Source: a virus. From it: a stretch of 52,058 nucleotides of DNA. Each line of letters opens with the position of its first letter. The first letter of the stretch is position 1. The stretch is from positions 1 to 52,058 of IMG/VR virus record IMGVR_UViG_3300042568_000965; one strand, given 5' to 3'. Made by a program: the position numbers and the translations under genes. Below the pieces are notes generated by a model. The model was not told the DNA's origin. It ran no database searches and saw nothing but the letters and a program-made list of their open reading frames with translations. Of this stretch, positions 115 through 48,064 are shown piece after piece.

Positions 115-498
115 GGGGGTAAAAATGGTATTGACTGGCATTGTTAATTGTTCGGGGCACGCAGTGAGAAGATTCCTATCACTTAAATCTACGGATTCAA
201 ATTTTAGACGGCAACGTACTAGACAAAATGGCGACTATCGGTTTAATCCGTGAAAACGCTGAAGTTGTAGCTTAATAGTTAAGAAACAACAACGGGTCGG
301 TGAGTGTATAACCCAGGAACAGAAGCTCTTTAGGGGTTGAAAAATGACTGAACCCTAAATCGAGTCGTCCATTGGTTGTTAGTTTACGATGGTGAAGAAC
401 AAACTAAATATTTTGGAATGTTAGAAAACATTATCCTAAGCGTGTAGTCCTTAATAGTTAAGGTGAACAACACGGCGGTTCGACCCCGCCTACCTCCA
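115..498 (+). ncRNA. ssrA: tmRNA (transfer-messenger RNA)
   Basis: Rescues stalled ribosomes by acting first as tRNA-Ala and then as an mRNA for a degradation tag. The 5' GGGGGTA (115-121) pairs with 3' TACCTCC (491-497); the third pair is G-U, the alanine identity element. Discriminator is A498 and CCA is not encoded. GGTATTGAC near the 5' end resembles the conserved GGUUUCGAC of tmRNA, and a T arm GGCGG/TTCGACC/CCGCC is present. A reading frame from GGC at 210 to TAA-TAG at 273-278 gives a tag ending RENAEVVA; if the resume codon is 210 the tag is 21 residues. The resume codon is my inference from the preceding TTTTAGAC and could be later. The VVA ending differs from the LAA usual in bacterial tags. 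SmpB is the next gene, convergent. Carried by some large phages, but seldom together with SmpB. Confidence 0.95.
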
Positions 499-502
499 CT
501 TT

Positions 503-588: not shown

Positions 589-1023
589 TTAAATATTTCT
601 TTTCATATCCCGATCAATGTCTCGATTTTTAATTGATTCTCTTTTATCGTAAAGTTTCTTACCTCGACCTAAAACAATTTCTATTTTAATCAAACCTCTG
701 TCATTAATGAAAATTCTATACGGAATAATTGCTAATCCTTTTATTAATTGATTCTCTAATTTTCTTAATTCTTTTTTCTTGAGTAATAATTTTCTATCCC
801 TATTGGTTTCGTGGAAAGTTCCATACCCATAATCTGAAATATTCATTCCTTTAACAAATAATTCACCATTACTAAAATAACAATAACTCTCTGAAATTGA
901 GGCTTTATTTTCCCTAATAGATTTTACCTCAGACCCAATTAATTGAATTCCCGCAATTTCGGTTTGGATAAATTCGTATTCAAACTTTACTTTTTTATTA
1001 ACTATATTAACCGAATGTTTCAT
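589..1023 (-). CDS. smpB: SmpB, tmRNA-binding protein
   Basis: Binds the tRNA-like domain of tmRNA and delivers it to stalled ribosomes. The 144 residues cover the whole family: N-terminal beta-barrel start NKKVKFEYEF, the conserved GSEVKSIRENKASISESY block, RKLLLKKKELRKL, and the near C-terminal ARGKKLYDKRE-type motif, here GRGKKLYDKRESIKNRD. The C-terminal tail is basic (RDMKRNI) and shorter than in many bacteria. The start is fixed by the promoter, whose -7 element ends only four bases before the ATG, so the mRNA is leaderless or nearly so. It faces the tmRNA gene tail to tail, making a complete trans-translation module in about 0.9 kb. Assignment is secure; the phage origin is inferred from context. 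Confidence 0.97.
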   Translation of the reverse strand: MKHSVNIVNKKVKFEYEFIQTEIAGIQLIGSEVKSIRENKASISESYCYFSNGELFVKGMNISDYGYGTFHETNRDRKLLLKKKELRKLENQLIKGLAIIPYRIFINDRGLIKIEIVLGRGKKLYDKRESIKNRDIDRDMKRNI

Positions 1024-27781: not shown

Positions 27782-28657
27782 CTATATTCTATTCTTCCAT
27801 TTATTTGTCAATACAACATCCCCATAGGATATTAATCTCATTAATTCGGGTTTTTTAATCTTAATAATATCTTTAATTTTAAAAATCAAATTATTTTTAT
27901 TACAGAATTCTTCGGCGAATTTAAACTTTATTTCATTAATTTTTGTTCTCCATAAATTTTTTGGTTTACACTCAATTACATATTTTTCATTTATTACAAA
28001 ATCAGGAAAGTAGTTTTTATTAATACCATCAATTTCGTATGGGATTTTATATTTATCAGATTCACCATTTTCCCAAGGTAAATTAAAACGTTCAATCACA
28101 TATATCATATAACTCAACTCTAGTAAACTTCTAAAAAACCAATCCTTGTACCATCCAGAAATCCCATTTCCAGAATTTTTTGGGGCTGGCTTACCGAACA
28201 TACGATTTTTATTACCTCTATTTAATAAAGATTGTTTATTTTTTAGTTCGATTAACTTTTTATCGGCAATTTCTTTTCCATATTTTTTAACCCAAATAGT
28301 ATAAACTGATTTACCATACATTGGATTATTCTCTCCTTTAGTTAAATTTGAAATTTTTTTCCTAAATTCTTCAGTTTTATAAACTTCATAATCCCTCGAT
28401 TCGACCATTTTATTTTTTGATTCTTCAGTATGTTTTTTACCAAAAAATGGGTTCAGTTCACCAAACTTACCATACATTGGATTATTTTTTCCTTTAACTC
28501 TTTCTGACATTCTTTTTTTGGTCTCATCGTTCATTATTTCTTTTAAACCGCAACTTTTACATTTAGAATATTTTTTTTCCGCATTTAACATATTATACTT
28601 ATTTTTATATGTTATTTCACATTCACATTTCGGACAATTTCTTTTAAAACTTGTCAT
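27782..28657 (-). CDS. Homing endonuclease-like protein: NUMOD3 repeats plus PD-(D/E)xK nuclease
   Basis: 291 residues. N-terminal CPKCECE and CKSC form a zinc finger; three NUMOD3-type motifs follow (MSERVKGKNNPMYGK, NPFFGKKHTEESKNKM, LTKGENNPMYGKS), the DNA-binding modules of phage homing endonucleases. The C-terminal third has YFPDFVINEKYVIECKPK, a PD...ExK-type nuclease core. It cuts and copies itself into related genomes. It is transcribed away from a P-loop kinase gene 59 bases off that carries an insertion in its Walker A motif; that gene is a natural candidate target. Confidence 0.8.
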   Translation of the reverse strand: MTSFKRNCPKCECEITYKNKYNMLNAEKKYSKCKSCGLKEIMNDETKKRMSERVKGKNNPMYGKFGELNPFFGKKHTEESKNKMVESRDYEVYKTEEFRKKISNLTKGENNPMYGKSVYTIWVKKYGKEIADKKLIELKNKQSLLNRGNKNRMFGKPAPKNSGNGISGWYKDWFFRSLLELSYMIYVIERFNLPWENGESDKYKIPYEIDGINKNYFPDFVINEKYVIECKPKNLWRTKINEIKFKFAEEFCNKNNLIFKIKDIIKIKKPELMRLISYGDVVLTNKWKNRI

Positions 28658-33536: not shown

Positions 33537-35399
33537 TTACTTAACTTCCTCAAACTCAACATCATTTGGGTCTATTGTGGTTGATTGGTCTCCATCGCCA
33601 CTACTTTGATACATTTCTTGTGAAATTTTGTGGAAATGTTCATTTAATTCATCCATATGTTTTGTAACAGACTCAACATCTTTTTTACTATGAGATTCTT
33701 TTAATAAATCTAACTTAGAATTAATTTCGGTTTTTTGTTCTTCTGTTAATTTATCTGATAAATCATTCATTGATTTGGTAATATTGAATATTGTACTATC
33801 CGCCATATTTAAAACCTCAGCATCTTCTTTGGATTTCTTATCTGATTCGGCATTTAATTCCGCATCTCTTTTCATTCTTTCAATATCTTCTTGCGATAAA
33901 CTTGATGAAGATTCAATTCTAATTGATTGTGTTTTGTTTGTGGCTTTATCAACCGCAGAAACATTAATTATACCGTCTGCATTCACATCAAACACGACTT
34001 CTATTTGAGGTGTTCCTCTCATAGCGGGTGGAATACCATCTAAATGAAATCTACCAATAGTTTTATTATCTTTTGCCATAGCTCTCTCACCTTGTAATAC
34101 GTGAATTTCCACACTTGGTTGATTATCTGATGCGGTAGAAAAAACTTGTGATTTTTTGGTTGGAATTGTTGTATTTGACTCGATTAATTTTGTAAACACA
34201 CCACCCATAGTTTCAATACCTAAAGATAATGGTGTAACATCTAACAATAAAACATCCTTAACATCGCCCGCTAAAACACCTCCTTGAATTGCCGCTCCTA
34301 AAGCTACAACTTCATCAGGATTTACCCCTTTTGATGGGTCTTTTCCGAAGAATTTCTTAACTGCGTCTTGGATTGCAGGAATTCTTGTTGTACCACCAAC
34401 TAAGATAATTTCATCAATATCACTCGGATTTAATTTCGCGTTTCTTAATGCTGACTTACAAGGGTCAATAGTTCTCTGAACCAAAGAATCTACCAATTGT
34501 TCAAATTTAGACCTTGTAAGTGTCTTAACTAAGTGTTTTGGAATACCATCTACCGGCATAATATAAGGTAAGTTAATCTCTGTTGAAACGCTTGAGGATA
34601 GTTCTATTTTAGCCTTTTCAGCGGCCTCCTTTAATCTTTGCAATGCCATAGGGTCTTTAGAAATATCGATACCATTCTCATCTTTAAACTCCTTAACTAA
34701 CCAATCTATGATTGTATTGTCAAAATCATCACCACCTAAATGAGTATCACCATCTGTTGACAATACTTCAAAAACGCCATCACCTAATTCTAAAACTGAT
34801 ACATCGTGAGTTCCACCACCACAATCAAATACCACGACCAAAATATCCTTATCTTTCTTATCAAGACCATAAGCTAGAGCGGCCGATGTGGGCTCGTTTA
34901 TGATACGTCTTACATTTAACCCCGCAATCTCACCGGCCTCTTTAGTTGCCTGTCTTTGAGCATCGTTAAAGTAAGCGGGTACGGTAATAACCGCGTCAGT
35001 CACAGAAGTTCCTAAATAATCTTCAGCGGTCTGTTTCATTTTTTGTAAGATGATTGCCGAAACCTCTTGTGGGGAGTATTTTCTATCATCAATCTCAACT
35101 CTTGGAGAATTATTATCACCTTTCACTACTTTATAAGGAACTCTTGTTAATTCCTTTTTGGATTCTTCAAAAGAAGTCCCCATAAATCTTTTAATTGAAT
35201 GGATTGTTTTATCGGGGTTTGTAACCGATTGTCTTTTAGCAGGGTCTCCTATTTTTCTTTCCCCACTTGTTGTAAAACCAACGATTGATGGTGTTGTTCT
35301 CTTACCTTCACTATTAGGTATCACCACAGGTTCATTACCTTCCATTACCGCAACACACGAATTCGTGGTCCCTAAATCAATTCCTATTATTTTTCCCAT
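33537..35399 (-). CDS. dnaK: DnaK (Hsp70) chaperone
   Basis: 620 residues, full length. The ATPase domain opens [20 protein letters not shown] and holds [47 protein letters not shown] and [11 protein letters not shown]; the linker [19 protein letters not shown] leads to the substrate domain and a helical lid. The end is [11 protein letters not shown]. In this copy the second phosphate loop reads DCGGGTHD where bacterial DnaK usually has DLGGGTFD. It folds proteins with DnaJ and GrpE; neither full partner is present, but a DnaJ-like zinc protein is 1.1 kb upstream. Phages with a complete DnaK are rare. An ATP-dependent role in assembly of the virion is inferred. Confidence 0.97.
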
Positions 35400-36512: not shown

Positions 36513-37340
36513 ATTAATATCTATTATTCCCCTATTACCACCTTTATTTTTTAATAAAGGGTTTGTTGTAAAATCAATTAAAAAAATATCACCTTTAGTA
36601 AAATCATCTTTATCTAACATATCTGTTTTTATATTATCACCCCAAATTAAAATATTTTTAGGGTTATTAACGATTTTTAAATAACTTTCATTTTCAAATT
36701 TATCCAAATCAGATTTTGTTTCTAAATTAGAAAATTGGTTATCTTTATCCCAACTTAAATAAATCATTTGTTCTACTTCTAAATAATCATCCATTTCCAT
36801 CTCACCTGAACCTTCACAATATTCACAATCTTCTCTACCATCATAACAATCTGGGCAGTTTACGTATCCGGTACCTTCGCAAGTTGAACAAGTATCTTTT
36901 CCTTCTCCACCACAATTATCACAAGAATTATCTTCATCATCTTCACCACTACCACCACACTCATCGCAATCAATTTCTCCATCACCACCACATTCGTGAC
37001 AAGTTATATCGGAATCACCACCACAACTTGAACATTTTTGAGTGCCGTACCCACTACAAAACTCACATTCATCCATTACATCTTCTTCAGTTATTTCACC
37101 AATACAAAAAGAATATAAGTTATTTTTTATTTGGTCGTAGGTGTTTTCCAAATCGGTGTTGCCTCTATTTATTTCGGACACCAAAAAACATAAAATCACG
37201 GTATCGATAGGGTTATAACTATCAAAAATATTATGATAATCAGACATTCTCTTTAATTCTCTATAAAAATCAGATGGAATTTCATCAGAATATGTTCCAG
37301 AAAATTTATTCGCTAATTTTATTAATTTATTTTTATCCAT
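36498..37340 (-). CDS. DnaJ-like zinc-cluster protein without J domain
   Basis: 280 residues. Residues about 92-178 contain eight C-x-x-C units, most in the DnaJ form CxxCxGxG (CEFCSGYG, CSSCGGDS, CHECGGDG, CDECGGSG, CDNCGGEG, CSTCEGTG, CPDCYDGR, CEYCEGSG). DnaJ has four, so this is a doubled cluster. There is no HPD-bearing J domain; the N-terminal 85 residues are helical and the C-terminal 100 unassigned and acidic. In DnaJ the zinc cluster binds unfolded substrate. With a phage DnaK nearby, a substrate-capturing partner is possible, but without HPD it could not stimulate DnaK in the usual way. Confidence 0.8.
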   Translation of the reverse strand: MDKNKLIKLANKFSGTYSDEIPSDFYRELKRMSDYHNIFDSYNPIDTVILCFLVSEINRGNTDLENTYDQIKNNLYSFCIGEITEEDVMDECEFCSGYGTQKCSSCGGDSDITCHECGGDGEIDCDECGGSGEDDEDNSCDNCGGEGKDTCSTCEGTGYVNCPDCYDGREDCEYCEGSGEMEMDDYLEVEQMIYLSWDKDNQFSNLETKSDLDKFENESYLKIVNNPKNILIWGDNIKTDMLDKDDFTKGDIFLIDFTTNPLLKNKGGNRGIIDINSTIL

Positions 37341-37354
37341 TTTGATTATATTAA

Positions 37355-37374
37355 ATAAATATTATATATTTATA
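37355..37374. promoter_or_regulatory. Divergent ATATTTAT boxes
   Basis: Minus-strand ATATTTAT at 37355-37362 precedes the zinc-cluster gene; plus-strand ATATTTATA at 37366-37374 precedes the ATG at 37378 by three bases. Confidence 0.45.
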
Positions 37375-37377
37375 TAT

Positions 37378-37647
37378 ATGACAAAAAAAGAAAAATTATC
37401 TTCATTATTCGATAGACTTCGTAAAGTCGAATCTTATTCCGATATTGAATCTGTTTCAAAAGAAATTGGAGAGTTTTTCAATGAAAACCAAATTAAAGAC
37501 CCTGAATTAAAAAAAACTCTTGATAGTTTAATATCTTTATTAAAGTTAAAATTTAAAAAGCGTAAGAAACAAAACGAAAGTTTAAAAACATCAAATTACG
37601 TTATTAGCGAAACTCAGTTACAATTTATAATTAATAATATAAAATGA
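37378..37647 (+). CDS. Small helical protein with C-terminal VISETQ element
   Basis: 89 residues from the ATG at 37378 (an upstream ATG at 37342 would overlap the boxes). Helical and basic (LKLKFKKRKKQNE), ending TSNYVISETQLQFIINNIK. The I-S-E-T-Q-L element at the end matches N-terminal elements of other proteins such as IITESQ. The next gene overlaps its stop (AAATGA). Confidence 0.68.
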   Translation: MTKKEKLSSLFDRLRKVESYSDIESVSKEIGEFFNENQIKDPELKKTLDSLISLLKLKFKKRKKQNESLKTSNYVISETQLQFIINNIK

Positions 37648-37871
37648 AAAATTTAATAATACTTGTCTTAGTATTTTTAATTTCCTGTTGTCAAAACCCC
37701 CAAGAAAAAGTTAAATTTAAAAAATGTGTAATTACAAGTATTAGTGTAATTAGAAATAAATCATCCATAGAATTCGGATTAAAATATTTTTACCATACCG
37801 ATTGTGATGTCACATTTACAAATAGAAAAAACATTTATCAGATTGGTGACACAATTAATATAATCGATTAA
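37644..37871 (+). CDS. Small lipoprotein
   Basis: 75 residues. Signal peptide MKNLIILVLVFLISC with lipobox LISC and a second Cys at +2. The mature part (VKFKKCVITSISV...DTINIID) is a short beta-rich domain with two further cysteines. Coupled to the previous gene by ATGA overlap. The role is unknown; it may sit in the inner or outer membrane of the infected host. Confidence 0.72.
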   Translation: MKNLIILVLVFLISCCQNPQEKVKFKKCVITSISVIRNKSSIEFGLKYFYHTDCDVTFTNRKNIYQIGDTINIID

Positions 37872-37872
37872 T

Positions 37873-39036
37873 TTACTTTCTACGTCTATACTTCAACTCA
37901 GTTTCAAATTGTTCACCTGTTTTATTTATTTTGTGATGTAATTCCCAATTCTTAATTGATGAATTTTTTTCTTTGGCAAGAGACCAAAGTTTTGATAATC
38001 TTTTCATAATTTTTGATGATACAATTTTCATTTTCTTTTCTTCATTTAAATAAAATCCTAAGATATTATTATCAAATTTATTAAAATAATCAATCATATC
38101 ATAAAATATTTTTTGTTTTTTACCTATAAAACCAATAATTTCTTCAAAATCACTTGTTGTCATCATTTCTTTAACTTTGGTGATTGTATTATTGGTTAAA
38201 TTAATATAAACAATTCTTAGCAATTCGTCAACTAATTCATCATCGGTTTTAAATGATTCAACATTTTCTACACCAACTCTCTTTAAGAAAATTTTAACGG
38301 CTTTTGAATCCTGTTTTAATTCTTCTCTCATTTTTTCATAAGAAAAATTATTAATCTTCTTTAACATTTTATAAGTTTCATTGTTTGTTAGAAAATCATA
38401 AAAACCTTCTTTATCTATTTCATTAGACCTCATAAGCGAAGAAACCTCAATTGGTCTAACCAAATTTTCAACCGCATGAGTAAAATAAACGTAATGTAAA
38501 AATTTCTGTATTGGGTAGAACGGAAAAGATGTTGAGGCAATTCCGGCATAACTCGGAACTTCTTTTATTGATTTGTATTTTTTCTTATAATTGTTATATG
38601 AGTGACCTAATTCGTGAGACAAAGAACTAGTAATCTCCTTAGATTTTTTTTCAAAAAATTCTATAATTTCTTTTTTTGTTGTTCCTTCAGGTCCTGCCAA
38701 ATTAATAATCATATTAATTTGACCTTTATCTATTTTAGCTTTTAATTTTAAAATTTTATTATTAAAAATCGTTCTTTGAGCAACCGCCATAGAATAAAAC
38801 TCAACATCTGATAATTTATCATATTCTTCAAACGTTATTGTTAAAAAAACATCAGTAATATATAAGTCGGATATAGATAATCCAGTTTCAATATCAAATT
38901 CCATTTCATTGTCTAATTCATTAGGAATGGTTTGTAATTCATTATATATTTCATTATATAATATTTCGGACGATTCTAAAACACCTTCAGGAACACCAAC
39001 GGCTTCTTTTAATATTCTTCTAATTAAATCTCTCAT
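37873..39036 (-). CDS. Zinc metalloprotease-like protein with N-terminal RILKEA tag
   Basis: 387 residues. The start MRDLIRRILKEAVGVPEG contains L-K-E in a basic helix, closely like a T4 capsid-targeting sequence. The catalytic motif SSLSHELGHSYNNYKKKY (HExxH) lies near residue 141. The C-terminal half is helical and lysine-rich. No signal peptide. A protease delivered with the virion into the host would fit the tag, but only the motif is directly visible. A CTATTTAT box lies five bases upstream. Confidence 0.75.
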   Translation of the reverse strand: MRDLIRRILKEAVGVPEGVLESSEILYNEIYNELQTIPNELDNEMEFDIETGLSISDLYITDVFLTITFEEYDKLSDVEFYSMAVAQRTIFNNKILKLKAKIDKGQINMIINLAGPEGTTKKEIIEFFEKKSKEITSSLSHELGHSYNNYKKKYKSIKEVPSYAGIASTSFPFYPIQKFLHYVYFTHAVENLVRPIEVSSLMRSNEIDKEGFYDFLTNNETYKMLKKINNFSYEKMREELKQDSKAVKIFLKRVGVENVESFKTDDELVDELLRIVYINLTNNTITKVKEMMTTSDFEEIIGFIGKKQKIFYDMIDYFNKFDNNILGFYLNEEKKMKIVSSKIMKRLSKLWSLAKEKNSSIKNWELHHKINKTGEQFETELKYRRRK

Positions 39037-39041
39037 AATAG

Positions 39042-39049
39042 ATAAATAG
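39042..39049 (-). promoter_or_regulatory. CTATTTAT box
   Basis: Variant of the ATATTTAT box, five bases before the protease ATG. It occupies part of the 75-base gap between the divergent protease and thymidylate synthase genes. Confidence 0.38.
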
Positions 39050-39086
39050 TTTCAAAATTTAATTTGATTTTACTTTTTTTTATAAC

Positions 39087-39094
39087 TATCTTTG
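39087..39094 (+). promoter_or_regulatory. Host-like promoter of thyA
   Basis: TATCTTTG with TTTG 20 bp upstream; the ATG at 39112 is 17 bases downstream. Confidence 0.8.
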
Positions 39095-39111
39095 TTATGG
39101 TATTAAAACTT

Positions 39112-40188
39112 ATGAACAAACTAGATAAACAATACGCAGACCTACTCCAAGACATTTTGGATAATGGAGTAACAAAAGGTGACCGAACAGGAACTGGAAC
39201 TATCTCAGTATTTGGAAGACAAATACGTCATAAAATGAGTGATGGGTTTCCTTTACTTACAACTAAAAAGATGGCTTGGAAAACTATGGTAACTGAATTG
39301 TTATGGTTTTTAAGAGGTGATACCAATATTAAGTTTTTAGTTGACAATGGTTGTCATATTTGGGATGGGGATGCTTATAAGAACTATGAAAAATGGTGGA
39401 AATCTTACTCTCCAGGCGGTGCGCCAATACCACTATCAAGAGAAATGTTTATTGATAGAATCAAAACAGATGATGAGTTTGCTAATAAGTGGGGTGAATT
39501 AGGACCCGTGTATGGGCATCAGTGGCGTAATTGGGGAGAATGGTCTACGATTGGTGTACCTAAAAAAGTTCTTAAACCAGGTATCGACCAAATCGCAAAC
39601 CTCATCAACGACCTCAAAACAAATCCCGACTCAAGACGCCTACTTGTCTCAGCGTGGAACCCAGCCGAGCTCGATCAAATGGTACTTCCACCTTGTCATT
39701 ATGGATTTCAAGTTTATACAAGAGAGTTAAGTGAACAAGAACGGATGGATTCATATAACAAATCAAATTGGAACAAAGATATATTCCCAAGTGACGTGAG
39801 TGGATGGAATAGACTATTTGATACTTATAACATTCCAACCAGAGCAATCTCTTTAATGTACAACGCCAGAAGTCAAGACGTTCCGTTGGGGACCCCATTC
39901 AATATATCATCCTACGCATTACTATTAGAGATAATTGCGAAAATGGTTAATATGGTTCCTGATGAATTGATTAGTAATATGGGTGATTGTCACATCTATC
40001 TAAACCAAATCGATGGAATTAAAGAACAATTAACAAGAGAACCTTTTGAGTTACCAAAATTAGTTATTTCTAATCAAGTTAATTTTAACGAAGGTATTGA
40101 CGAATTTTTGAATAGTTGTTTAATAACCGATTTTCAAATCGAGGGTTATCAAAGTCATCCAACAATAAAATTACCACTTTCTAATTAA
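39112..40188 (+). CDS. thyA: Thymidylate synthase
   Basis: 358 residues. Converts dUMP to dTMP with methylene-tetrahydrofolate. RTGTGTISVFGRQ is the phosphate-binding arm, PCHYGFQ holds the catalytic cysteine, and FNISSYALLLEIIAKM and GDCHIYLNQIDGIKEQL match. The protein has the longer mid-insert common in phage enzymes (YKNYEKWWKSYSPGGAPIPLSREMF). Ends GYQSHPTIKLPLSN. I chose ATG 39112 because earlier ATGs (39064, 39097) overlap or touch the promoter. The downstream GIY-YIG gene ends with a similar 13-codon tail, marking an endonuclease insertion. Confidence 0.97.
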   Translation: MNKLDKQYADLLQDILDNGVTKGDRTGTGTISVFGRQIRHKMSDGFPLLTTKKMAWKTMVTELLWFLRGDTNIKFLVDNGCHIWDGDAYKNYEKWWKSYSPGGAPIPLSREMFIDRIKTDDEFANKWGELGPVYGHQWRNWGEWSTIGVPKKVLKPGIDQIANLINDLKTNPDSRRLLVSAWNPAELDQMVLPPCHYGFQVYTRELSEQERMDSYNKSNWNKDIFPSDVSGWNRLFDTYNIPTRAISLMYNARSQDVPLGTPFNISSYALLLEIIAKMVNMVPDELISNMGDCHIYLNQIDGIKEQLTREPFELPKLVISNQVNFNEGIDEFLNSCLITDFQIEGYQSHPTIKLPLSN

Positions 40189-40249
40189 TTCTTAGGGTTA
40201 CCATTTAACTTTATACATTTTGTAGATATTTATGTTAAATGGTAGTCGT

Positions 40250-41014
40250 ATGATTGGAATATATAGAATTAAAAATTTGGTTAATGGTAAATGTTATTAT
40301 GGTTCATCAAAACAAATTGAAAAGAGATTAAGTAGACATAAAAGAGAATTAAAAAATAATATCCATATAAATTGTATATTACAAAGAGCTTGGGATAAGT
40401 ATGGTGAGAAAAATTTTTTATTTGAGGTTGTTGAGGAATGTGATGAAATGGTTTTACTTGAAAAAGAACAATATTATTTAGATTTAAATCCAGAATATAA
40501 TATTGGTTTAAAATCAAGTGGTGGGGATAACTTAACAAAAAACCCTAATAAAGATAAGATTGTTGAAAAAATGACCGAATCGGTTAAAAGAAGATATAAC
40601 ACAATGACCGATGAGGAGAAAAAAGAAAAACACTCCCAACCGATGGAGACTAACCCAAATTGGAAGGGCGGTATATCGATTTCTAATTGTGAAGTTTGTG
40701 GTAAAAAAATTAGTCAGGGAGCAAAAAGATGTATGGAACATATTAAGTATGAAAGAAATGGACCTGATAACCCATTTTTCGGTAAACAACACTCTGAAGA
40801 GACTAAAAAGAAATTGAGTGAAAAAAGAAAAGGTAAAAAACCAACTAATATGACACAAGTTGAAATTGATAATATTTTTTATGAGAGTTTGACGGAAGCG
40901 TCGAGAAAGACAGGTATTCCATCACCAACTATTTTATGGAGAATAAAATCTAAAAATAAAAAATACGAAAACTATCAATCACACCCTAAAATATCAGCAC
41001 CTTTATCAAATTAA
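40250..41014 (+). CDS. GIY-YIG homing endonuclease with a thyA-like C-terminal tail
   Basis: 254 residues from the ATG at 40250 (MIGIYRIKN). Residues 1-90 are the GIY-YIG nuclease (IGIYRIKNLVNGKCYYGSS, R of KRLSRHKREL, E of LEKEQYYLD). Then a zinc finger (CEVCGKKISQGAKRCMEH), a NUMOD3 motif (NPFFGKQHSEETKKKLSEKRKGKKP) and an IENR-type helix-turn-helix (SLTEASRKTGIPSPTILWRIKSKNKKY). The end YQSHPKISAPLSN matches YQSHPTIKLPLSN of ThyA, nine of 13 residues, then TAATTC in both. The DNA of the two tails has diverged at synonymous sites, so the duplication is not recent. An ATATTTAT box (40226-40233) precedes it. Confidence 0.88.
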   Translation: MIGIYRIKNLVNGKCYYGSSKQIEKRLSRHKRELKNNIHINCILQRAWDKYGEKNFLFEVVEECDEMVLLEKEQYYLDLNPEYNIGLKSSGGDNLTKNPNKDKIVEKMTESVKRRYNTMTDEEKKEKHSQPMETNPNWKGGISISNCEVCGKKISQGAKRCMEHIKYERNGPDNPFFGKQHSEETKKKLSEKRKGKKPTNMTQVEIDNIFYESLTEASRKTGIPSPTILWRIKSKNKKYENYQSHPKISAPLSN

Positions 41015-41040
41015 TTCATATTTACAATAAAGGGAAAACC

Positions 41041-42666
41041 GTGAAAAAAATAATTTTCATATTATCATTCTTAATAAGTTGTGCCATTAATTCACAAGTT
41101 TCTTCCGTTTATACTTTTAGTGAAACTACAGGTACATATACACCAATAACAGGTGGGGTTCAGTTGGTAACAACTACTGGTGGTGTCACATCATACGATA
41201 CTGATGGTAGTAGTGTTACATTATCAAGTGGCTCACAATTTGTATTTAATGGTTCAACCATAACATCCGTTAATATGACCGCGGATGGTTCATTGTGGTT
41301 AAATCCAACAACTACAACAACAGGAAATGGGGTTACTGGCCCAATCTCTTCAAATAGTGGTGCGGCGGGTGTAATTTCCGCTTTGGGTATGGATTTAAGA
41401 AGTACCGCAATAAGTTCACAACTCTATGAAAGAAGGTGGGAAGATTTAGGTTCAGAGGTAGTATTTCAATGGCAAAATTGTGCAAGGTATCTTCAAAGTA
41501 GTACGGAACGTTTTTCATTTCAAATTAGAATTGAAAAATCAACTGGTAATATTAGAGTAGTTTATGGTAATATGACAACTATCGCCAATAGTACAACATA
41601 TCAACCACAAGTTGGTTTAAGGGGTACAACCAACGCGGACTACAACACAAGGAGATTGACAAACTCAGTTCCAGATGCTTCTCCAAATTGGGGAGCGCCT
41701 AATGGAACCACAGCCGGAACATCAAATGCACATACTTGTAGATTCACCAGTAATGGTACTTGTTATCCGACATCAGGATTAATTTTTATTTGGACATATA
41801 CTGGCGCTCCTAACAATAATGATTTTTGTTCAAATGCAACAACAATAACTACACCATATTCGAGTGGTCTTGTTTCCACCATAGGTTCAACTTCTGATGT
41901 GCCTACTAGTACGTCAAGTTGTGCTACTCAATCGAATAATGTTTGGTACAAAATAACAGGGACAGATAAGAATTTAATTGCTTCTACTTGTAATAATTCA
42001 ACCAATTTTGATACAGAAATAAGGGTTTATACAGGTAGTTGTGGGTCTTTGAATACTATGGTTGAGGTTGATTGTAATGATGATGAAGCGACTTGTGCTT
42101 ATAGTACCGTTCAATCCGTTGTAACTTGGTGCGCAACTAGTGGTGTTGATTATTACATTTCAGTTGGTTACTTCTCATCTACAGGTGGTACTGGTAATTT
42201 TATATTGTCAGTCACCGAAAATGGTGTTTGTGGTGCCGCATTACCAATTGAGTTATTAGATTTTAGTGGTAAGTTTGTTGAAAATTATAACTTACTTAAT
42301 TGGGTAACAACATTAGAAATTAATAACGATTTTTTCACAATTGAAAGAAGTATTAATGGTTCTGATTGGGAATTTACCGATAATATTGATGGATCCGGTA
42401 ATAGTTCTATAAAAAAAGAATATGATTATAAAGACTATAAATTTGTGGATAAACAAATAAATTACTACAGATTAAAACAAACCGATTATAATGGAAATTT
42501 TAAATACTTTAATGTCATCAGTATCGATAATACTAATTTAAAAAAACGTCAATTAATTAAAATGACTGATATTTTAGGTAGACCTGTTTCATCTGAATAT
42601 GTGGGAATTATTTTCCTAATATATGACGATGGTAGTTATGAAAAAATAATTAAATCCACTAACTAA
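41041..42666 (+). CDS. Secreted protein with type IX-like C-terminus
   Basis: 541 residues from GTG. Signal peptide MKKIIFILSFLISCAINSQ. The first 250 residues are a beta-rich domain of a kind seen in Bacteroidota surface proteins (GTYTPITGG, SSNSGAAGVISALG). Residues about 255-395 are PPC-like (NDFCSNATTI...VWYKITG...DTEIRVYTGSCGSL). The C-terminus starts LPIELLDFSGKF.ENYNLLNWVTTLEINNDFFTIERS, the standard introduction to a type IX sorting region, and ends with RPVSSEYVGIIFLIYDDGSYEK. Probably exported to the host surface like the giant protein at 12147. Four bases separate it from the next gene. Confidence 0.8.
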   Translation: MKKIIFILSFLISCAINSQVSSVYTFSETTGTYTPITGGVQLVTTTGGVTSYDTDGSSVTLSSGSQFVFNGSTITSVNMTADGSLWLNPTTTTTGNGVTGPISSNSGAAGVISALGMDLRSTAISSQLYERRWEDLGSEVVFQWQNCARYLQSSTERFSFQIRIEKSTGNIRVVYGNMTTIANSTTYQPQVGLRGTTNADYNTRRLTNSVPDASPNWGAPNGTTAGTSNAHTCRFTSNGTCYPTSGLIFIWTYTGAPNNNDFCSNATTITTPYSSGLVSTIGSTSDVPTSTSSCATQSNNVWYKITGTDKNLIASTCNNSTNFDTEIRVYTGSCGSLNTMVEVDCNDDEATCAYSTVQSVVTWCATSGVDYYISVGYFSSTGGTGNFILSVTENGVCGAALPIELLDFSGKFVENYNLLNWVTTLEINNDFFTIERSINGSDWEFTDNIDGSGNSSIKKEYDYKDYKFVDKQINYYRLKQTDYNGNFKYFNVISIDNTNLKKRQLIKMTDILGRPVSSEYVGIIFLIYDDGSYEKIIKSTN

Positions 42667-42669
42667 TAT

Positions 42670-42993
42670 ATGTCAAAAAAAATTACAAAATATCAAAAAA
42701 TAATTAAGGAATGGAAAGACGCAACACCAAAAGAAATATGGGAAGGTATTAGAGATAATTTTATATTTGGTTTTATTGGAGCAACTCTAGTTGTTTTTAT
42801 TTCAACAAAATCTGATTTAGCGGTCTTAATTGGGTATTTGACTTATTATTCATTTATGGGTAAAATAGTTAACCGACCTAAATATGTTACAGATTTAGGT
42901 AAATTAATAGTATTTCCATTACCATCGGCTTTAGGGGCTTTCACAGGATATAAAGTTTCCTATATGTTAATAAAATACATTATGTATTTATAA
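42670..42993 (+). CDS. Membrane protein
   Basis: 107 residues with hydrophobic segments near 28-45, 50-62 and 78-105, and a basic N-terminus (MSKKITKYQKIIKEWK). The size and topology would suit a holin, but the endolysin gene is 6 kb away. It follows the secreted protein directly, so it may be part of that transcript. Confidence 0.6.
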   Translation: MSKKITKYQKIIKEWKDATPKEIWEGIRDNFIFGFIGATLVVFISTKSDLAVLIGYLTYYSFMGKIVNRPKYVTDLGKLIVFPLPSALGAFTGYKVSYMLIKYIMYL

Positions 42994-43000
42994 TTTTTAA

Positions 43001-43603
43001 ATGAAATTAAACACAAATATACCTTATTTTAAATGTTTAGTTAAACAATCTTATTTTACTAAAAATAAAGAACACGAAAACATATATAATAATTGTTACG
43101 CTTTCGGAATTCAATCAGTACCTTCTAAAATTTTAACATTTCACGTTATTACTGATTATGGTATGGTAAGATCAAGAGTCCCAATATCTGAAATATATCT
43201 AAAAGAACCTAAAAATGACGTTCCTTTTTATTTTAAACAACTTTGGGATTGTTTTGGTTATGATGTATCAATAACAACTTATGATTTTTTAAAGGAGAAT
43301 AGATGTGAAGTTTTATTAAGGGATAAAACAAAGGTTTGGGCGACGTATATATTCACCGTTGATTGGTATGATAATCCTTTTAGTGATGAACCGTCAGATT
43401 ATAAATGCGGTCATATTTTAGTGTCTGACGATGGTTATTTATTATGTATGCCAAATAACAGAATTTATTGGAGAGACTCTAATTGGGTAACTAAAGAATT
43501 TCCCGTATTACCGCAAGAAATAAAAGTAGATACTGATTTACCTAGTGTTGAAAGTATTTCAGATAGATGGGTTTCAGACGACACAGATTCATTTTACTAT
43601 TAA
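43001..43603 (+). CDS. Conserved hypothetical phage protein
   Basis: 200 residues. The block IFTVDWYDNPFSDEPSDYKCGHILVSDDGYLLCMPNNRIYW is conserved in a family of Bacteroidota phage proteins. It is mainly beta and acidic, without an enzyme motif I can name. It follows the membrane protein by seven bases. Confidence 0.7.
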   Translation: MKLNTNIPYFKCLVKQSYFTKNKEHENIYNNCYAFGIQSVPSKILTFHVITDYGMVRSRVPISEIYLKEPKNDVPFYFKQLWDCFGYDVSITTYDFLKENRCEVLLRDKTKVWATYIFTVDWYDNPFSDEPSDYKCGHILVSDDGYLLCMPNNRIYWRDSNWVTKEFPVLPQEIKVDTDLPSVESISDRWVSDDTDSFYY

Positions 43604-43633
43604 AAAATTATTTATTATCTTTATAAAAAAACT

Positions 43634-43819
43634 ATGGAAAATTTGTATAACTACGTATTTTGGTACAATTCTTATCAAGAATTATGGTACGCAATCGAAA
43701 CAACTAAGTACACCGAATTTATGTCGGGACATCTTAGAGATGAAAACACTCTAACTTCAAATAAAATTGAGACTTTAATTGAGTTAATTAATAACCCGGC
43801 TCGTATACCTGAAGAATGA
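43634..43819 (+). CDS. Small hypothetical phage protein
   Basis: 61 residues (MENLYNYVFWYNSYQELWYAIE...KIETLIELINNP). The aromatic N-terminus and the WYAI..T.Y..F pattern recur in small phage proteins. The next small gene overlaps its stop (AATGA), so the two are coupled. Confidence 0.65.
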   Translation: MENLYNYVFWYNSYQELWYAIETTKYTEFMSGHLRDENTLTSNKIETLIELINNPARIPEE

Positions 43820-43977
43820 TTTGGGATATAACAATTTTAAAAAAAGTGGATGACCATTTCATTGTTATGAATGTTAATGGTGATACTCATCTAATAAACC
43901 GAGACTCTTTGGATATCTTTTTAAGAAATGGAAGAGTCTCTAATGCAAAAGAATTTGGTTTCGATGATAAAAAATAG
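43816..43977 (+). CDS. Small hypothetical protein, overlapping both neighbours
   Basis: 53 residues (MIWDITILKKVDDHFIVMNVNGDTHLINRDSL...). It begins in an ATGA overlap with the previous gene and ends 14 bases inside the next one. The beta-rich start with a helical end looks like a real small fold. It was too short for usual thresholds, but overlaps on both sides argue for a gene. Confidence 0.62.
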   Translation: MIWDITILKKVDDHFIVMNVNGDTHLINRDSLDIFLRNGRVSNAKEFGFDDKK

Positions 43978-44623
43978 AACCCCTTATGTTGGTAAAATAA
44001 AACTACTATTCGAAAAATATCCTCATTATACTTCATCGGATAGTTTATTAAATAAAGTTCATTTTGATATTGGTTTTATAAAATTAGTTAGTCGTATGTT
44101 TCCCAATAAAACTAAAGAGTCAGGTTGGGAAATAGATAAAAATAAAATAAACTTAATTAATAAAAACACCGGAGGATATATACGAAATTATATTCATAAT
44201 GATTTTGTTTTAGAGAACTCTTTTTTGAGTGATGGGGGGATTTATGTTGGTGATATCGAAACAGGGTGGTGGTATTATAATAACAACTTCAAAGTTTGTG
44301 ATGATTATCCAAAAGGAGTGGCTGAAGTTTTGAGGTTTGGTAAATTGGAAGGTTATTACGGATATACCCATAGGGGAGGTCAGACCTTTACTATTGGGGA
44401 TAAATTATTTGACGAGAATTGGATACCTACTTTCGATGAGTTAGATGAATATTGGATTGAATCATATGAACAATCGACAGGGATTGAAGTTAGGAATATT
44501 AACGATGAATTTTTAATTGAGATAGTTTCTTATATACCATTTAAGAAAAGAGGTTCTGTCACAATATCCAATTTTGAGGAATGTAAGCAATCCGCAATAA
44601 ATATGTCAAAATATCTTTCTTAG
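43964..44623 (+). CDS. Conserved hypothetical phage protein (GYTHRGGQTF)
   Basis: 219 residues from the ATG at 43964 (an earlier in-frame ATG at 43928 lies deeper inside the previous gene). GDIETGWWYYNNNF, GVAEVLR and YYGYTHRGGQTFTIGDKLFDENW are conserved in phage proteins of unknown role. No catalytic motif. It ends 13 bases before the next start and its last codons hold the ATATTTAT box of that gene. Confidence 0.68.
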   Translation: MIKNRTPYVGKIKLLFEKYPHYTSSDSLLNKVHFDIGFIKLVSRMFPNKTKESGWEIDKNKINLINKNTGGYIRNYIHNDFVLENSFLSDGGIYVGDIETGWWYYNNNFKVCDDYPKGVAEVLRFGKLEGYYGYTHRGGQTFTIGDKLFDENWIPTFDELDEYWIESYEQSTGIEVRNINDEFLIEIVSYIPFKKRGSVTISNFEECKQSAINMSKYLS

Positions 44624-44631
44624 ATATTTAT
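44624..44631 (+). promoter_or_regulatory. ATATTTAT box
   Basis: Five bases before the ATG at 44637. It directly follows the stop of the preceding gene. Confidence 0.42.
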
Positions 44632-44636
44632 TATTT

Positions 44637-45026
44637 ATGAAGGTAACCATAATTCATAAACAATCCGGAATTCCTGAAAAACAATATAAATTTTACGATA
44701 AGTTTATTGAGTTTTTACAGGAAGAAATTCCATTACGAGAAGATTTAACAATTTTATTTATCTCTGAAAGATTTGGTAGTATGACAACAGGAAGTAGAGA
44801 TGAAAAGGGTAGATTACGTATTCTAACTAAAAATAGAATAAATAGAGATATATTTAGAACTATCGCTCACGAATGGGTTCACGAAAATCAAATGAAGGTT
44901 TTAAAAAGAAAAAAAGGACCTGATATTGGTGGTCAAAATGAAGATGAGGCGAATGCCAAAGCCGGAAGTTTAATCAAGAAATTTGAAAAAAGACACCCAA
45001 ATTTAGAAAAATTAATGTACGCCTAA
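44637..45026 (+). CDS. Short zinc metallopeptidase-like protein (HEWVH)
   Basis: 129 residues. TIAHEWVHENQM contains HExxH, followed by GGQNEDEANAKAG, where the second Glu is a plausible third zinc ligand, as in minimal M48-like or gluzincin folds. Short proteins of this kind are common in large phages. No signal peptide. Fourth HExxH protein in the window. The stop is followed by a TGTACG/CGTACA inverted repeat shared with the convergent FKBP gene. Confidence 0.78.
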   Translation: MKVTIIHKQSGIPEKQYKFYDKFIEFLQEEIPLREDLTILFISERFGSMTTGSRDEKGRLRILTKNRINRDIFRTIAHEWVHENQMKVLKRKKGPDIGGQNEDEANAKAGSLIKKFEKRHPNLEKLMYA

Positions 45027-45048
45027 ATCAATAGACGTACAATTTAAT

Positions 45049-45480
45049 TTAAGCAATTCCGACCACTTCTAAATCAAAGATTAGTTTTTTACCCGCCAAA
45101 GGATGGTTAGCATCTACGATAACACTTTCATCTTTTACCTCAATTATTTTAACCATAATCGGTCCTTGAGGACCATTACCTTGTAAGGTATCACCAACTT
45201 TTGGATTTTCAGGTATTTGATTCTTAGGGACTTCGGCAGTCATCTCAATCAAATACTCTCCATAAGCGTCAGAAGGATTAATTTCGATGGTCTTCTTCTC
45301 ACCTTCAGTCATTTCCAAAAGACCATTTTCAAAACCAGGAATTAATTGCCCTTCACCGATTTTTGATTCCAAAGGATCTCTACCTTCAATCATAGAAGTA
45401 TCGAAAATTGTTCCGTCTTCTAATCTACCTGTGTAATTCACCTTTACGGTGTCTCCATTTTTTATTTTTTTCATTTCCAT
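45049..45480 (-). CDS. SlyD-like FKBP peptidyl-prolyl isomerase
   Basis: 143 residues. FKBP core VKVNYTGRLEDGTIFDTS and GFENGLLEMTEGEKK with an inserted flap domain (SDAYGEYLIEMTAEVPKNQIPENPKVGDTLQG), the SlyD layout, then VDANHPLAGKKLIFDLEVVG. The His-rich metal tail of E. coli SlyD is missing. Speeds proline isomerisation and has chaperone activity. Adds to the proteostasis genes in this window. Start is MEMKK; the second Met is equally possible. Confidence 0.93.
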   Translation of the reverse strand: MEMKKIKNGDTVKVNYTGRLEDGTIFDTSMIEGRDPLESKIGEGQLIPGFENGLLEMTEGEKKTIEINPSDAYGEYLIEMTAEVPKNQIPENPKVGDTLQGNGPQGPIMVKIIEVKDESVIVDANHPLAGKKLIFDLEVVGIA

Positions 45481-45569
45481 CTTTTTAGATAATTATAATA
45501 ATAAAAAAAAGATAAATCAAATTATTTTTTTAAAATAAAATTTTTATTTTTGTAACAAATATTAAAGAT

Positions 45570-45740
45570 ATGTCTAACGAAAAACATTTAGAAGAAATTT
45601 TACACGAATTACACATTAGAGGTTTAATAAACATTTTTAATGAAAAGATAAAAGATTTAAATTTTAAAGATGGTAGAGATAGATACTATACTGAGGTATT
45701 TAAAATTTATGAAGAAATCATATTAATTCAAAAGAATTAA
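45570..45740 (+). CDS. Small helical hypothetical protein
   Basis: 56 residues (MSNEKHLEEILHELHIRGL...KIYEEIILIQKN). Helical and charged, with a TATTTTTG host-like -7 element at about 45546-45553 and a 16-base leader. Too short for common thresholds, but the promoter and codon use support it. Its 3' end overlaps the convergent gene by 23 bases. Confidence 0.6.
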   Translation: MSNEKHLEEILHELHIRGLINIFNEKIKDLNFKDGRDRYYTEVFKIYEEIILIQKN

Positions 45741-45990
45741 CTAACATAAATTTTTCCCCATAAAGACCTGTATATTTCCAAGATTCTTCCATAATATAAT
45801 TAATACCATCATTCTGTATTAAATTAAAAGAATCTACGTCCTTAACGTGTAATGTACAATCTATGGAGTAATAATGCCCGTTTGTTGAGTATCTAACTTC
45901 ATTTATGGTGACATACGAACCAGGTCCATATAATAGTTCAATATCTTCTTTATGAATATTATTTACCATTATCATCAAACACTTCTTCAT
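45718..45990 (-). CDS. Hypothetical protein
   Basis: 90 residues. Mainly beta (YGPGSYVTINEVRYSTNGHYYSIDCTLHVKDV), with no recognised family. The true start may be one of the inner Met codons (MIMVNNIH or MVNNIH). It overlaps the 3' end of the small helical gene on the other strand. Confidence 0.58.
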   Translation of the reverse strand: MKKCLMIMVNNIHKEDIELLYGPGSYVTINEVRYSTNGHYYSIDCTLHVKDVDSFNLIQNDGINYIMEESWKYTGLYGEKFMLVNSFELI

Positions 45991-46033
45991 ATCTATAATT
46001 ATAATGAAAAATGTTTATTATTTAAATGAATAG

Positions 46034-46042
46034 ATATTTATA
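46034..46042 (+). promoter_or_regulatory. ATATTTATA box
   Basis: Four bases before the ATG at 46047. The gene behind it begins with the IITESQ tag. Confidence 0.45.
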
Positions 46043-46046
46043 AATT

Positions 46047-46376
46047 ATGAGATTTATTATAACAGAATCCCAAAATAATTTTCTATGGTTACTTAGAAGA
46101 TTACACGACCCTGAAATTAAAGACCATTTAACTGAAATAGTTGTTGAGGGTCTTGATATCTATAACCCTTGTGATTATACTCTTGATGAGTATGTAAATA
46201 TAATTGTAGAAGGTTCGGCAGAAACATTCATTCTATCTTATGAAGATAAATTTACAGGTAAAGAAAATATAGATTCATTACGTCAATTTATAAAAGAATT
46301 CATAATTGATAATTATGACACTATCATATCTAAACATTACGATTTTATAATAAACGAATTCGATGATTGCGTTTAA
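46047..46376 (+). CDS. Hypothetical protein with N-terminal IITESQ tag
   Basis: 109 residues. MRFIITESQNNFLWLLRRL is the clearest example of the I/L-x-E element (I-T-E). The remainder is acidic and helical (HDPEIKDHLTEIVVEGLD, SLRQFIKEFIIDNYDTI) with no known domain. Preceded by an ATATTTATA box. Packaging into the head is an inference from the tag. Confidence 0.7.
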   Translation: MRFIITESQNNFLWLLRRLHDPEIKDHLTEIVVEGLDIYNPCDYTLDEYVNIIVEGSAETFILSYEDKFTGKENIDSLRQFIKEFIIDNYDTIISKHYDFIINEFDDCV

Positions 46377-46489
46377 TTTACCATTATCCCCATATTTATA
46401 GATGGTAATATTAATATGATTTGATTTTTTTTAAAAATTAAATTAATATTTGTTTATAATAAACCTACGATATATATATATAAAAACAT

Positions 46490-47203
46490 ATGGGAAAGGA
46501 TATGAGAGACCTACTTGATGGGTATGGTAAAATATTAAACGAGTCCGACTACACTAGTCTTAAACGTAGATTATCGGGGGAATTATTTGCGGAAATTAAA
46601 TCTCATCAAAAATCACAAATACAAGAAAGTTCACTTAATAGAATTTTACATCACGTTAGTGAACACGATTGTGCGGTCATCACCGCTTTTAGAAAAAAAT
46701 TAATTAATTGTGTGAATGGTGAAGAAAGTGAAAATGTTTTAAACATTAAAACAAATAAAGGAAGAAATATCACTCTAAAATCCACATTATTGTATTTGGG
46801 TTATCAAGTTACTGAAGTTAAAGGTACTTATATCGAAAATTATATGCAAGAAAATGAAGTTGAGGTTAAAGAAGATAGTTTTTTTGTGGTTAACTCTGAT
46901 GACAATCCTAAATTTTCTCAAGATATGTTTGATTTAGGTGAGTTATTTTGTCAAGATAGTGTGTTAATGTTCACAAATGGGGGTGGTAATAATTACTTGA
47001 TAGGTACTAACAATTCCGATTTTCCTGGTTACGAACAAAAATCTCAATTAGGTAAGATTAAACCGGGAATGGAGGGTGAATTTATGACTAAAGTTGGTGG
47101 AAGACCTTTTATGACTGAAGATTTTAAAACTCTACAAATCAACACAAAAAAATTAGTTACCGAAATCGGTAGACCAATTGCTCAACACATAAGAAAAAAA
47201 TAA
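46490..47203 (+). CDS. Conserved phage protein (TAFRxKLxxxxNxxxN...SFFVVN)
   Basis: 237 residues. Near the start is DGYGKILNESDY, again an L-N-E element. The body (CAVITAFRKKLINCVNGEESENVLNIKTNKGRNITLKSTLLYLGYQVTEVKGTYIE...VKEDSFFVVNSDDNPKFSQDMFDLGELFCQDSVLMF) matches a family of phage proteins with the pattern xSFxV and GxxFxQDS, possibly a small alpha/beta fold. The function is unknown to me. No late box or host-like promoter is clear. Confidence 0.7.
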   Translation: MGKDMRDLLDGYGKILNESDYTSLKRRLSGELFAEIKSHQKSQIQESSLNRILHHVSEHDCAVITAFRKKLINCVNGEESENVLNIKTNKGRNITLKSTLLYLGYQVTEVKGTYIENYMQENEVEVKEDSFFVVNSDDNPKFSQDMFDLGELFCQDSVLMFTNGGGNNYLIGTNNSDFPGYEQKSQLGKIKPGMEGEFMTKVGGRPFMTEDFKTLQINTKKLVTEIGRPIAQHIRKK

Positions 47204-47245
47204 TTTTTTTATCATTTAAAATTTTGATTTTTCTAATTTATTTAC

Positions 47246-47253
47246 TAAATTTG
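47246..47253 (+). promoter_or_regulatory. Host-like promoter
   Basis: TAAATTTG with TTTTG 19 bp upstream, four bases before ATG. Confidence 0.75.
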
Positions 47254-47257
47254 TTTT

Positions 47258-47476
47258 ATGGAATTTATAGAAATCAAAAACGAATTTAATTGGGTTATTA
47301 AAATCTTAAACTCAAGTAAGACTAAAGAACATATTTCGGCATCCGAAAAATTATTTGAAAATTTTATAAAAAAATGGGATTTTGAAATATCGGACATTAT
47401 GAAATTAAAATATCAAAACGAGTTTAATTTACTAAAAAACGATAAAATTTCAGATTTATTTTTACAAAAAGTTTAA
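47258..47476 (+). CDS. Small hypothetical protein
   Basis: 72 residues, helical and lysine/glutamate-rich (IKNEFNWVIKILNSSKTKEHISASEKLFENFIKKW). No family is known to me. The first of four plus-strand genes each with its own host-like promoter and nearly no leader, likely early genes. Confidence 0.65.
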   Translation: MEFIEIKNEFNWVIKILNSSKTKEHISASEKLFENFIKKWDFEISDIMKLKYQNEFNLLKNDKISDLFLQKV

Positions 47477-47500
47477 TTTTTTTATTTCAGAAATAATTTG

Positions 47501-47508
47501 TATCTTTG
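47501..47508 (+). promoter_or_regulatory. Host-like promoter
   Basis: TATCTTTG, four bases before the ATG at 47513. It lies 25 bases after the stop of the preceding gene, so the two genes are transcribed separately. Confidence 0.8.
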
Positions 47509-47512
47509 TATT

Positions 47513-48064
47513 ATGAAAAAAGTAATTGAAAACATTGGACTTTGGTGGAAATTTGAGGGTAGATATTACCACAAAGATTTTGTCAATGGTATTAAAAATC
47601 TAATCAGATGGTTTCCAACTATTTGGAAAGATAGAGATTGGGACGACCATTTCATTTGGGAAATAATGATGAAGAAAATTACCTTTCAAGCCGATTACAT
47701 TGGTAAAAGAGATTTTCATACTCGAGCTAAACGTGATGCTGAAATAATGATGACCTGTGTTAGGTTGATGGGTAAAGTTCGTGAAGAACATTACCATATG
47801 GAATATATGGATTATCACGAGTCTGCATATGATTTTGTTGATTGTGATACACCAGGGTATAAGGAATTGAAAATCACTGAAGTATCTGAAAACTTTGATG
47901 ACTACTTCAAAAAATATCCAAGAACTTATAAAAAGATTTTGAGTGAAAATCCCAATGAGTCAAAAAGCAGAATTGCTTTTCTAATGTCTATGGAAAATCA
48001 TAGAAAAGCCAGAAGAATCTTATTTAAACTAATGGAGAATAATTTGGAGGCTTGGTGGGATTAA
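47513..48064 (+). CDS. Conserved phage protein (RWFPxIWKDRDWD family)
   Basis: 183 residues from the ATG at 47513; an upstream ATG (47498) lies in the promoter. IRWFPTIWKDRDWDDHFIWEIMMKKITFQADYIGKRDFHTRAKRDAEIMMTCVRLM is a well conserved block in phages. Many Trp, His and Asp residues suggest an enzyme or metal binder, but I know no activity. It ends EAWWD. Confidence 0.78.
   Translation: MKKVIENIGLWWKFEGRYYHKDFVNGIKNLIRWFPTIWKDRDWDDHFIWEIMMKKITFQADYIGKRDFHTRAKRDAEIMMTCVRLMGKVREEHYHMEYMDYHESAYDFVDCDTPGYKELKITEVSENFDDYFKKYPRTYKKILSENPNESKSRIAFLMSMENHRKARRILFKLMENNLEAWWD

Follow-up and report, generated by a model that had tools for sequence, protein, structure and literature searches.

The thymidylate synthase gene thyA of the analyzed phage DNA (the window, all 52,058 nucleotides of the IMG/VR virus record IMGVR_UViG_3300042568_000965) is followed by a GIY-YIG endonuclease gene, and comparison with related viral contigs indicates that this arrangement probably represents a free-standing homing element with the 3' end of phage thyA as its target, a reading to which we assign a probability of roughly 0.83. 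The alignments indicate that the endonuclease tail is the original thyA 3' end of the recipient phage, and that the current thyA tail came with the endonuclease. The locus comprises the following features.

39112..40188, + strand: thyA, thymidylate synthase (open reading frame; Pfam Thymidylat_synt, E 7.6e-97), the putatively cleavage-resistant allele travelling with the endonuclease
40144..40188, + strand: thyA tail GYQSHPTIKLPLSN (stop), imported and recoded, with TTA replacing the native GCA codon; it differs from the native tail at those codons by which endonuclease-linked and unlinked thyA can be told apart
40232..41014, + strand: GIY-YIG homing endonuclease gene, 260 codons (Pfam; dN/dS 0.15-0.28 against relatives)
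40253..40489, + strand: GIY-YIG catalytic domain, residues 8-86 (Pfam PF01541, E 2.2e-9, above cut-off; invariant Tyr, Glu, and Asn columns)
40760..40819, + strand: NUMOD3 DNA-binding motif, residues 177-196 (Pfam PF07460, 6.7e-10, above cut-off)
40820..40954, + strand: I-TevI-type DNA-binding domain, 'type 1' KPTNMTQV...TILWRIKSKNKKYENY, residues 197-241 (Pfam PF20987, I-TevI_DNA-bd, 1.1e-6, above cut-off; alignment)
40970..41014, + strand: leftover, the recipient's original thyA 3' end (NYQSHPKISAPLSN, stop), read in frame as the endonuclease C-terminus (42/45 nt match to the native thyA end of L217-L220; structure as in L013/L077)
40998..41014, + strand: portion of the old thyA end also kept in L215 (from 40998) and, shorter, in L214 (from 41002) (blastn breakpoints and junction sequences)

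The thyA-endonuclease locus and the origin of its two tails

The window thyA and endonuclease terminate in ...IEGYQSHPTIKLPLSN and ...KKYENYQSHPKISAPLSN, respectively. As the original prediction had noted, these C-termini are nearly identical: the last 13 residues (YQSHPTIKLPLSN and YQSHPKISAPLSN), aligned to the stop codon, agree at 10 positions, a match with a chance probability roughly estimated at ~1e-9 to 1e-10. The synonymous divergence it had described was likewise confirmed, with 6 of the 10 shared residues encoded by different codons (AGT/TCA, CAT/CAC, CCA/CCT, CCA/CCT, CTT/TTA, and TCT/TCA). The TAATTC that follows both tails is present but was given no weight, since TAA is the stop codon and just three extra matching bases are left. 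The endonuclease combines the GIY-YIG catalytic domain with NUMOD3 and the I-TevI-type DNA-binding domain (Pfam), the domain make-up of an I-TevI-like GIY-YIG homing endonuclease. Its open reading frame is intact across lineages and under purifying selection (dN/dS 0.15-0.28), and a nine-member alignment shows no variation in the Tyr, Glu, and Asn columns of its catalytic domain. By alignment, the same thyA site was found to be occupied by two endonuclease subfamilies that differ in their DNA-binding ends; the pairing of the two DNA-binding-end versions with different catalytic subfamilies suggests module exchange among these endonucleases. No conserved CNNNG motif of the I-TevI type was detected near the tail at a frequency of at least 40%, a result that counts against the homing reading.

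The native tail was recognized by comparing relatives with and without the element. Contigs L013 (with the element) and L077 (without it) are identical at 2980 of 3053 nucleotides (98% over 3 kb), and their match starts at the thyA-tail codons AAY-TAC-CAA-TCA-CAC-GGA, which form the end of thyA in L077 and the end of the endonuclease gene in L013. The GGA codon, private to the recipient thyA of L013, is present in the endonuclease tail DNA of that contig. This junction establishes that the endonuclease tail is the recipient's old thyA end, and the different origin of the two tails in this pair rules out a duplication by slippage. For the window itself, contigs L217-L220 were found via the downstream gene at 42670-42993 (79% identical protein). 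They have no endonuclease, and the end of their thyA (NYQSHPKISAPLSN) is identical to the window leftover at 42 of 45 nucleotides, the first 36 without a difference, so that the unusual KISAPLSN tail is common to the window leftover and these element-less contigs at the DNA level. The whole thyA of L217-L220 is just 53% identical to that of the window, as expected if the window thyA was imported.

Two other close relatives of the window (97-99% identical flanks), L214 and L215, carry different occupants and shorter leftovers. L214 matches the window over 36668-39166 at 99.4% and over 41002-47994 at 97.9% identity; between these flanks lies a divergent thymidylate synthase (Pfam E 3.7e-61) around which ~55 nt of the thyA start and ~13 nt of the thyA end are kept, and the match of the window thyA to L214 is limited to the first ~55 nt. 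In L215, the same site holds a different GIY-YIG gene (53% identical) and a ~17-nt leftover. Judged from these alignments, one thyA site has been hit repeatedly.

The original prediction had proposed that an endonuclease invaded thyA near its 3' end, kept a version of its last exon, and that thyA later regained its end. The invasion and the two versions of the terminus hold, but the order of events is reversed: the comparison with thyA of insert-free relatives that it had called for identified the thyA end of L217-L220 and L077 as the native source of the leftover, and both L013/L077 and window/L217 establish that the present thyA end was imported with the element. The wording 'last exon' is inapplicable here.

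The only other endonuclease match in the window's own record is a NUMOD3 stretch at 28391-28570; the gene at 27782-28657 (- strand) joins three NUMOD3 motifs to a TnsA-like endonuclease domain and is likely a second mobile nuclease. Elsewhere, the window encodes both components of trans-translation, a tmRNA match at 115-501 (+ strand; Rfam 65.3 bits; uncalled by ARAGORN) and SmpB at 589-1023 (- strand; Pfam E 2.6e-46), and a full-length GOLLD RNA at 1607-2002 (- strand; 306.5 bits) beside tRNA-Met at 1523-1597 (- strand). GOLLD also lies upstream of thyA in L014 and L068. Host-like chaperones, a full-length Hsp70 and an FKBP-type isomerase, are encoded at 33537-35399 and 45049-45480 (both - strand).

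Recurrence, tail recoding, and partner synthases in related phages

Relatives of the locus were gathered by scanning IMG/VR with the endonuclease and with thyA. The window-type arrangement of thyA and endonuclease is common to dozens of contigs, and in many of them a member of the endonuclease family starts ~40-70 nt past the thyA stop codon. A search for fused tails, suggested by the original prediction, used a DNA pattern in which a thyA-type tail is joined to K(Y/F)xNY and matched 21 stretches of public viral contigs, several of them near-duplicates; 18 are GIY-YIG endonucleases of the window's family, and the recurrence of the fusion in these stretches rules out an assembly artefact. In GTDB bacterial and archaeal genomes, the 58 pattern matches included no relative of the window endonuclease. 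Among 185 matched endonuclease stretches, a count that includes redundant loci and, in its 'other' class, split matches of the same genes, 111 lie behind thyA, nine behind a divergent thymidylate synthase, and two behind ThyX. Two rearranged-looking contigs, L025 (truncated thyA, endonuclease remnant) and L200 (scattered thyA pieces), were left out as evidence.

The exchange of the whole synthase is best seen in contigs L015 and L038, which are 99.6% identical downstream and 97% upstream of the site; L038 has thyA, whereas L015 has ThyX (Pfam Thy1, E 7.5e-30) and a window-type endonuclease. The divergent synthase precedes the endonuclease in nine contigs. A full thyA leftover lies downstream in L197, where it is in frame, and in L128; L192 has a short leftover and L179 a longer, decayed thyA fragment. 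A remnant of the thyA start (MNKLDK...) was found upstream in L197 and L015. In the remaining divergent-synthase contigs the divergent synthase itself could be the target. The original prediction had stated that it would be refuted by the same tail in GIY-YIG enzymes away from thyA; in the intended sense none was found, the upstream gene in L197 and L128 being another thymidylate synthase that replaces thyA. The T5-like phages Gostya9, SP01, and SelmaRatti carry a divergent td and an endonuclease relative where related phages have the usual td; the T5-like td region is matched by 221 records, only 10 of them across td. A chimeric td, suggested by blastn extension, was rejected, as the full alignment gives ~60% identity throughout and the whole td differs. 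Among cultured T5-like coliphages, Gostya9 (L113) and DT571/2 (L213) differ by such a whole-td swap, with the endonuclease relative only in the Gostya9 version, and this pair is a ready laboratory test case. In L031 (3306-4967), a long in-frame insert, apparently an HNH/NUMOD-type nuclease, breaks up the frame of a divergent thymidylate synthase.

The tails of endonuclease-linked thyA genes are recoded relative to the native consensus, TAT CAA TCA CAC CCA ACA ATT AAA GCA CCT TTA TCA AAT. At the GCA (Ala) position linked tails have Met, Phe, Leu, Ile, or Tyr codons, and neighboring codons differ too; mean identity to the consensus is 0.88 for native tails, 0.83 for leftovers, and 0.71 for linked tails. 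Met at this position is normal in other thymidylate synthases, so replacement of the Ala should be tolerated. With thyA clustered at 90% identity, Ala was kept in none of 39 linked versus 28 of 43 unlinked clusters (Fisher p 2e-11, relatedness ignored). About 15 unlinked clusters likewise lack the Ala codon, which counts against the homing reading. Recoded tails without an adjoining endonuclease occur in L048, L093, L100, L109, and others, and some of these may be elements that lost the endonuclease. On a thyA tree built with the tail excluded, tail class changes just ~4 times and endonuclease presence ~12 times; the cluster statistic is therefore phylogenetically non-independent, and independent contrasts of endonuclease against tail class left 4 usable pairs on supported branches, with no significance possible. 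The argument is carried by the direct pairs. Between L064 (linked) and L107 (native) the thyA body is 81% but the tail 44% identical; between L138 (linked) and L109 (unlinked, also recoded) the values are 95% and 63%.

These data also bear on the best-surviving alternative, which we consider unlikely: ordinary phage recombination would swap thyA ends together with their neighbors, and the endonuclease would be a passenger that cuts elsewhere or nowhere. The clustering of tail class on the thyA tree, the recoded tail of some unlinked thyA genes, and the putative status of cleavage agree with such passive exchange. However, it would not lead one to expect an endonuclease found mostly right after thyA or some other thymidylate synthase, breakpoints within the last thyA codons in different lineages, or two endonuclease subfamilies with different DNA-binding ends at the same site.

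The homing reading is further informed by the three forms in which the element occurs. The endonuclease reads in frame into the tail in the window, L005, L014, L019, L023, L024, and L078; it has its own end (NYKYKD or similar, then stop), with the leftover separate or absent, in L016-L018, L039, L058, and L066; and L046 has a recoded thyA and a leftover without an endonuclease, and looks like an element that lost it. In L016 and L018, a small gene between endonuclease and leftover ends by reading the leftover in another frame. A small gene of the type MENYK..YYNPETFE..., possibly a passenger gene, lies near the element in L016 (3734-3958), L018, L046, L050, L100, and L197 (6429-6689); in L016 and L046 the thyA leftover, read in a different frame, forms the end of this gene. 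In L016, L018, L053, and L081 the leftover has decayed or lies out of frame, and in some contigs it is absent, which indicates that the tail is no needed part of the endonuclease. It is thus quite improbable that selection keeps the tail as a functional part of the enzyme, with a role in folding, regulation, or mimicry of the target: many members of the window's subfamily do have the tail in frame, but members at 62-80% identity end in NYKYKD without it, and the tail DNA follows the recipient's thyA down to the private GGA codon of L013. A group I intron or other spliced element, with the upstream thyA as exon 1 and the leftover as exon 2, can be dismissed almost entirely: T4 td has a related enzyme in an intron and thyA of Bacillus phage Bobb is split around a relative, but Rfam detected no intron near the locus at E values up to 5, in eight related loci, or in the window at the gathering threshold, thyA is complete by itself with its own end and stop codon, as the original prediction had it in seeing no intron, and the open reading frame running straight into the leftover leaves no room for an intron core.

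Proposed homing cycle and its implications

Under the homing reading, a cell would be co-infected by an element-carrying and an element-free phage, and the endonuclease would cut the element-free thyA near its last ~14 codons. Repair of the break off the element-carrying genome would copy in a cleavage-resistant thyA end, anything between the last ~10 codons and the complete gene, along with the endonuclease gene, and the recipient's old thyA end would be displaced downstream as the leftover. In the window, the leftover lies in frame and supplies the last 14 residues of the endonuclease. The recoded thyA tail would prevent recutting; the leftover, native in sequence, would presumably escape it as the endonuclease coding sequence on its left removes the other half-site, and may serve as the right-hand homology arm when the element is next transferred, a role also proposed for the yeast WHO elements. 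In some lineages a divergent thymidylate synthase or ThyX would take the place of a recoded thyA as the resistant partner. The distance from the leftover start to the GCA codon is 27 nt, and I-TevI makes its cut 23-25 nt away from the insertion site (PMC2988022); by analogy, binding at GCA and cutting near the NYQSHP codons are plausible. We infer cleavage, its exact site, resistance, and biased inheritance from the compared sequences, and the recurrence of the element in dozens of phages with empty sites makes cleavage, immunity by recoding, and biased inheritance directly testable.

A further reading, tentative and in our view slightly short of even odds, is that of a natural phage cleave-and-rescue gene drive, in which the endonuclease would destroy the thyA of competitors and carry a rescue module that can be exchanged, be it a recoded thyA end, an entire resistant thyA gene, a divergent synthase, or ThyX, which is non-homologous. 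A putative rescue copy linked to the nuclease is present as complete thyA in the window, ThyX in L015, and the divergent synthase in L197. If this were true, an arms race would push phages to exchange one thymidylate synthase type for another, and would preserve the old gene end as an arm already in place for recombination. The versions with ThyX or the divergent synthase point to a cause of the patchy distribution of thymidylate synthase types across phages. For annotation, the last residues of an open reading frame beside such an element can be its neighbor's leftover.

Comparison with known homing systems

Phage homing endonucleases are usually regarded either as components of introns or inteins, which are removed by splicing, or as free-standing genes that lie between others. 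The present element, if correctly interpreted, would be a third kind, one that replaces the end of its host gene. As far as we found, the described homes of gene-end-replacing endonucleases have so far been yeast nuclei and fungal mitochondria (PMC7282813, PMC3630166); no phage report was found in the open-access literature, most subscription papers lying outside that search.

The intron-encoded I-TevI of T4 td (PMC2988022) shares with the phage element the GIY-YIG domain, NUMOD3, the I-TevI DNA-binding domain, and a thymidylate synthase target; I-TevI is spliced out with its intron, whereas the phage element has no intron and replaces the gene end. The T4 seg genes likewise encode free-standing GIY-YIG enzymes, and their spread is accompanied by co-conversion of the adjoining sequence; co-conversion and marker exclusion are described for T4 free-standing endonucleases, but seg genes are presented as intergenic, and no coding-end replacement with a leftover is described in that source (PMC2988022). 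Engineered home-and-rescue drives (HomeR, PMC7968924) resemble the phage layout, a natural parallel, in targeting the 3' coding end of an essential gene; HomeR is synthetic, Cas9-based, and works in flies, whereas the phage element is natural and its drive presumed.

Closer counterparts are the mORFs of fungal mitochondria, known from atp6, atp9, cox2, and nad3 of Glomus and atp6 of Allomyces (PMC3630166). There, too, a mobile endonuclease ORF supplies the host gene with a foreign C-terminus, leaving the native one downstream, and the mORF at atp9 is also of the GIY-YIG type. In contrast to the phage locus, where the thyA stop codon precedes the endonuclease, whose frame continues into the leftover, mORFs reside in mitochondrial genes and some are fused in frame to the upstream host gene.

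The WHO elements of Torulaspora and Lachancea yeasts, at the aldolase gene FBA1 (Coughlan et al. 2020, PMC7282813), agree with the phage element in several respects: the endonuclease gene lies directly downstream of an essential metabolic gene with no splicing, homing swaps the 3' end of that gene for a resistant one (in the phage, a putatively resistant one), the old 3' end remains downstream as a fragment, and other endonucleases reuse the site. WHO endonucleases are intein-derived LAGLIDADG-type enzymes with zinc fingers in yeast nuclei, whereas the phage enzyme is I-TevI-like GIY-YIG, Pfam giving GIY-YIG, NUMOD3, and I-TevI_DNA-bd only and thus not the intein-like domain fused to a zinc finger of WHO proper. 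WHO fragments measure ~400 bp, compared with phage leftovers of usually 13-45 nt that sometimes form the endonuclease's own C-terminus, and replacement of the whole enzyme (ThyX, divergent synthase) occurs in the phage element, unlike WHO. The layout of an imported 3' end with the native end downstream of the endonuclease was found in L013/L077, window/L217, L214, and L215, and on these grounds the phage element appears WHO-like or mORF-like by function, not by homology. By analogy, we conclude that it probably works like the WHO elements while being built from I-TevI-like parts.
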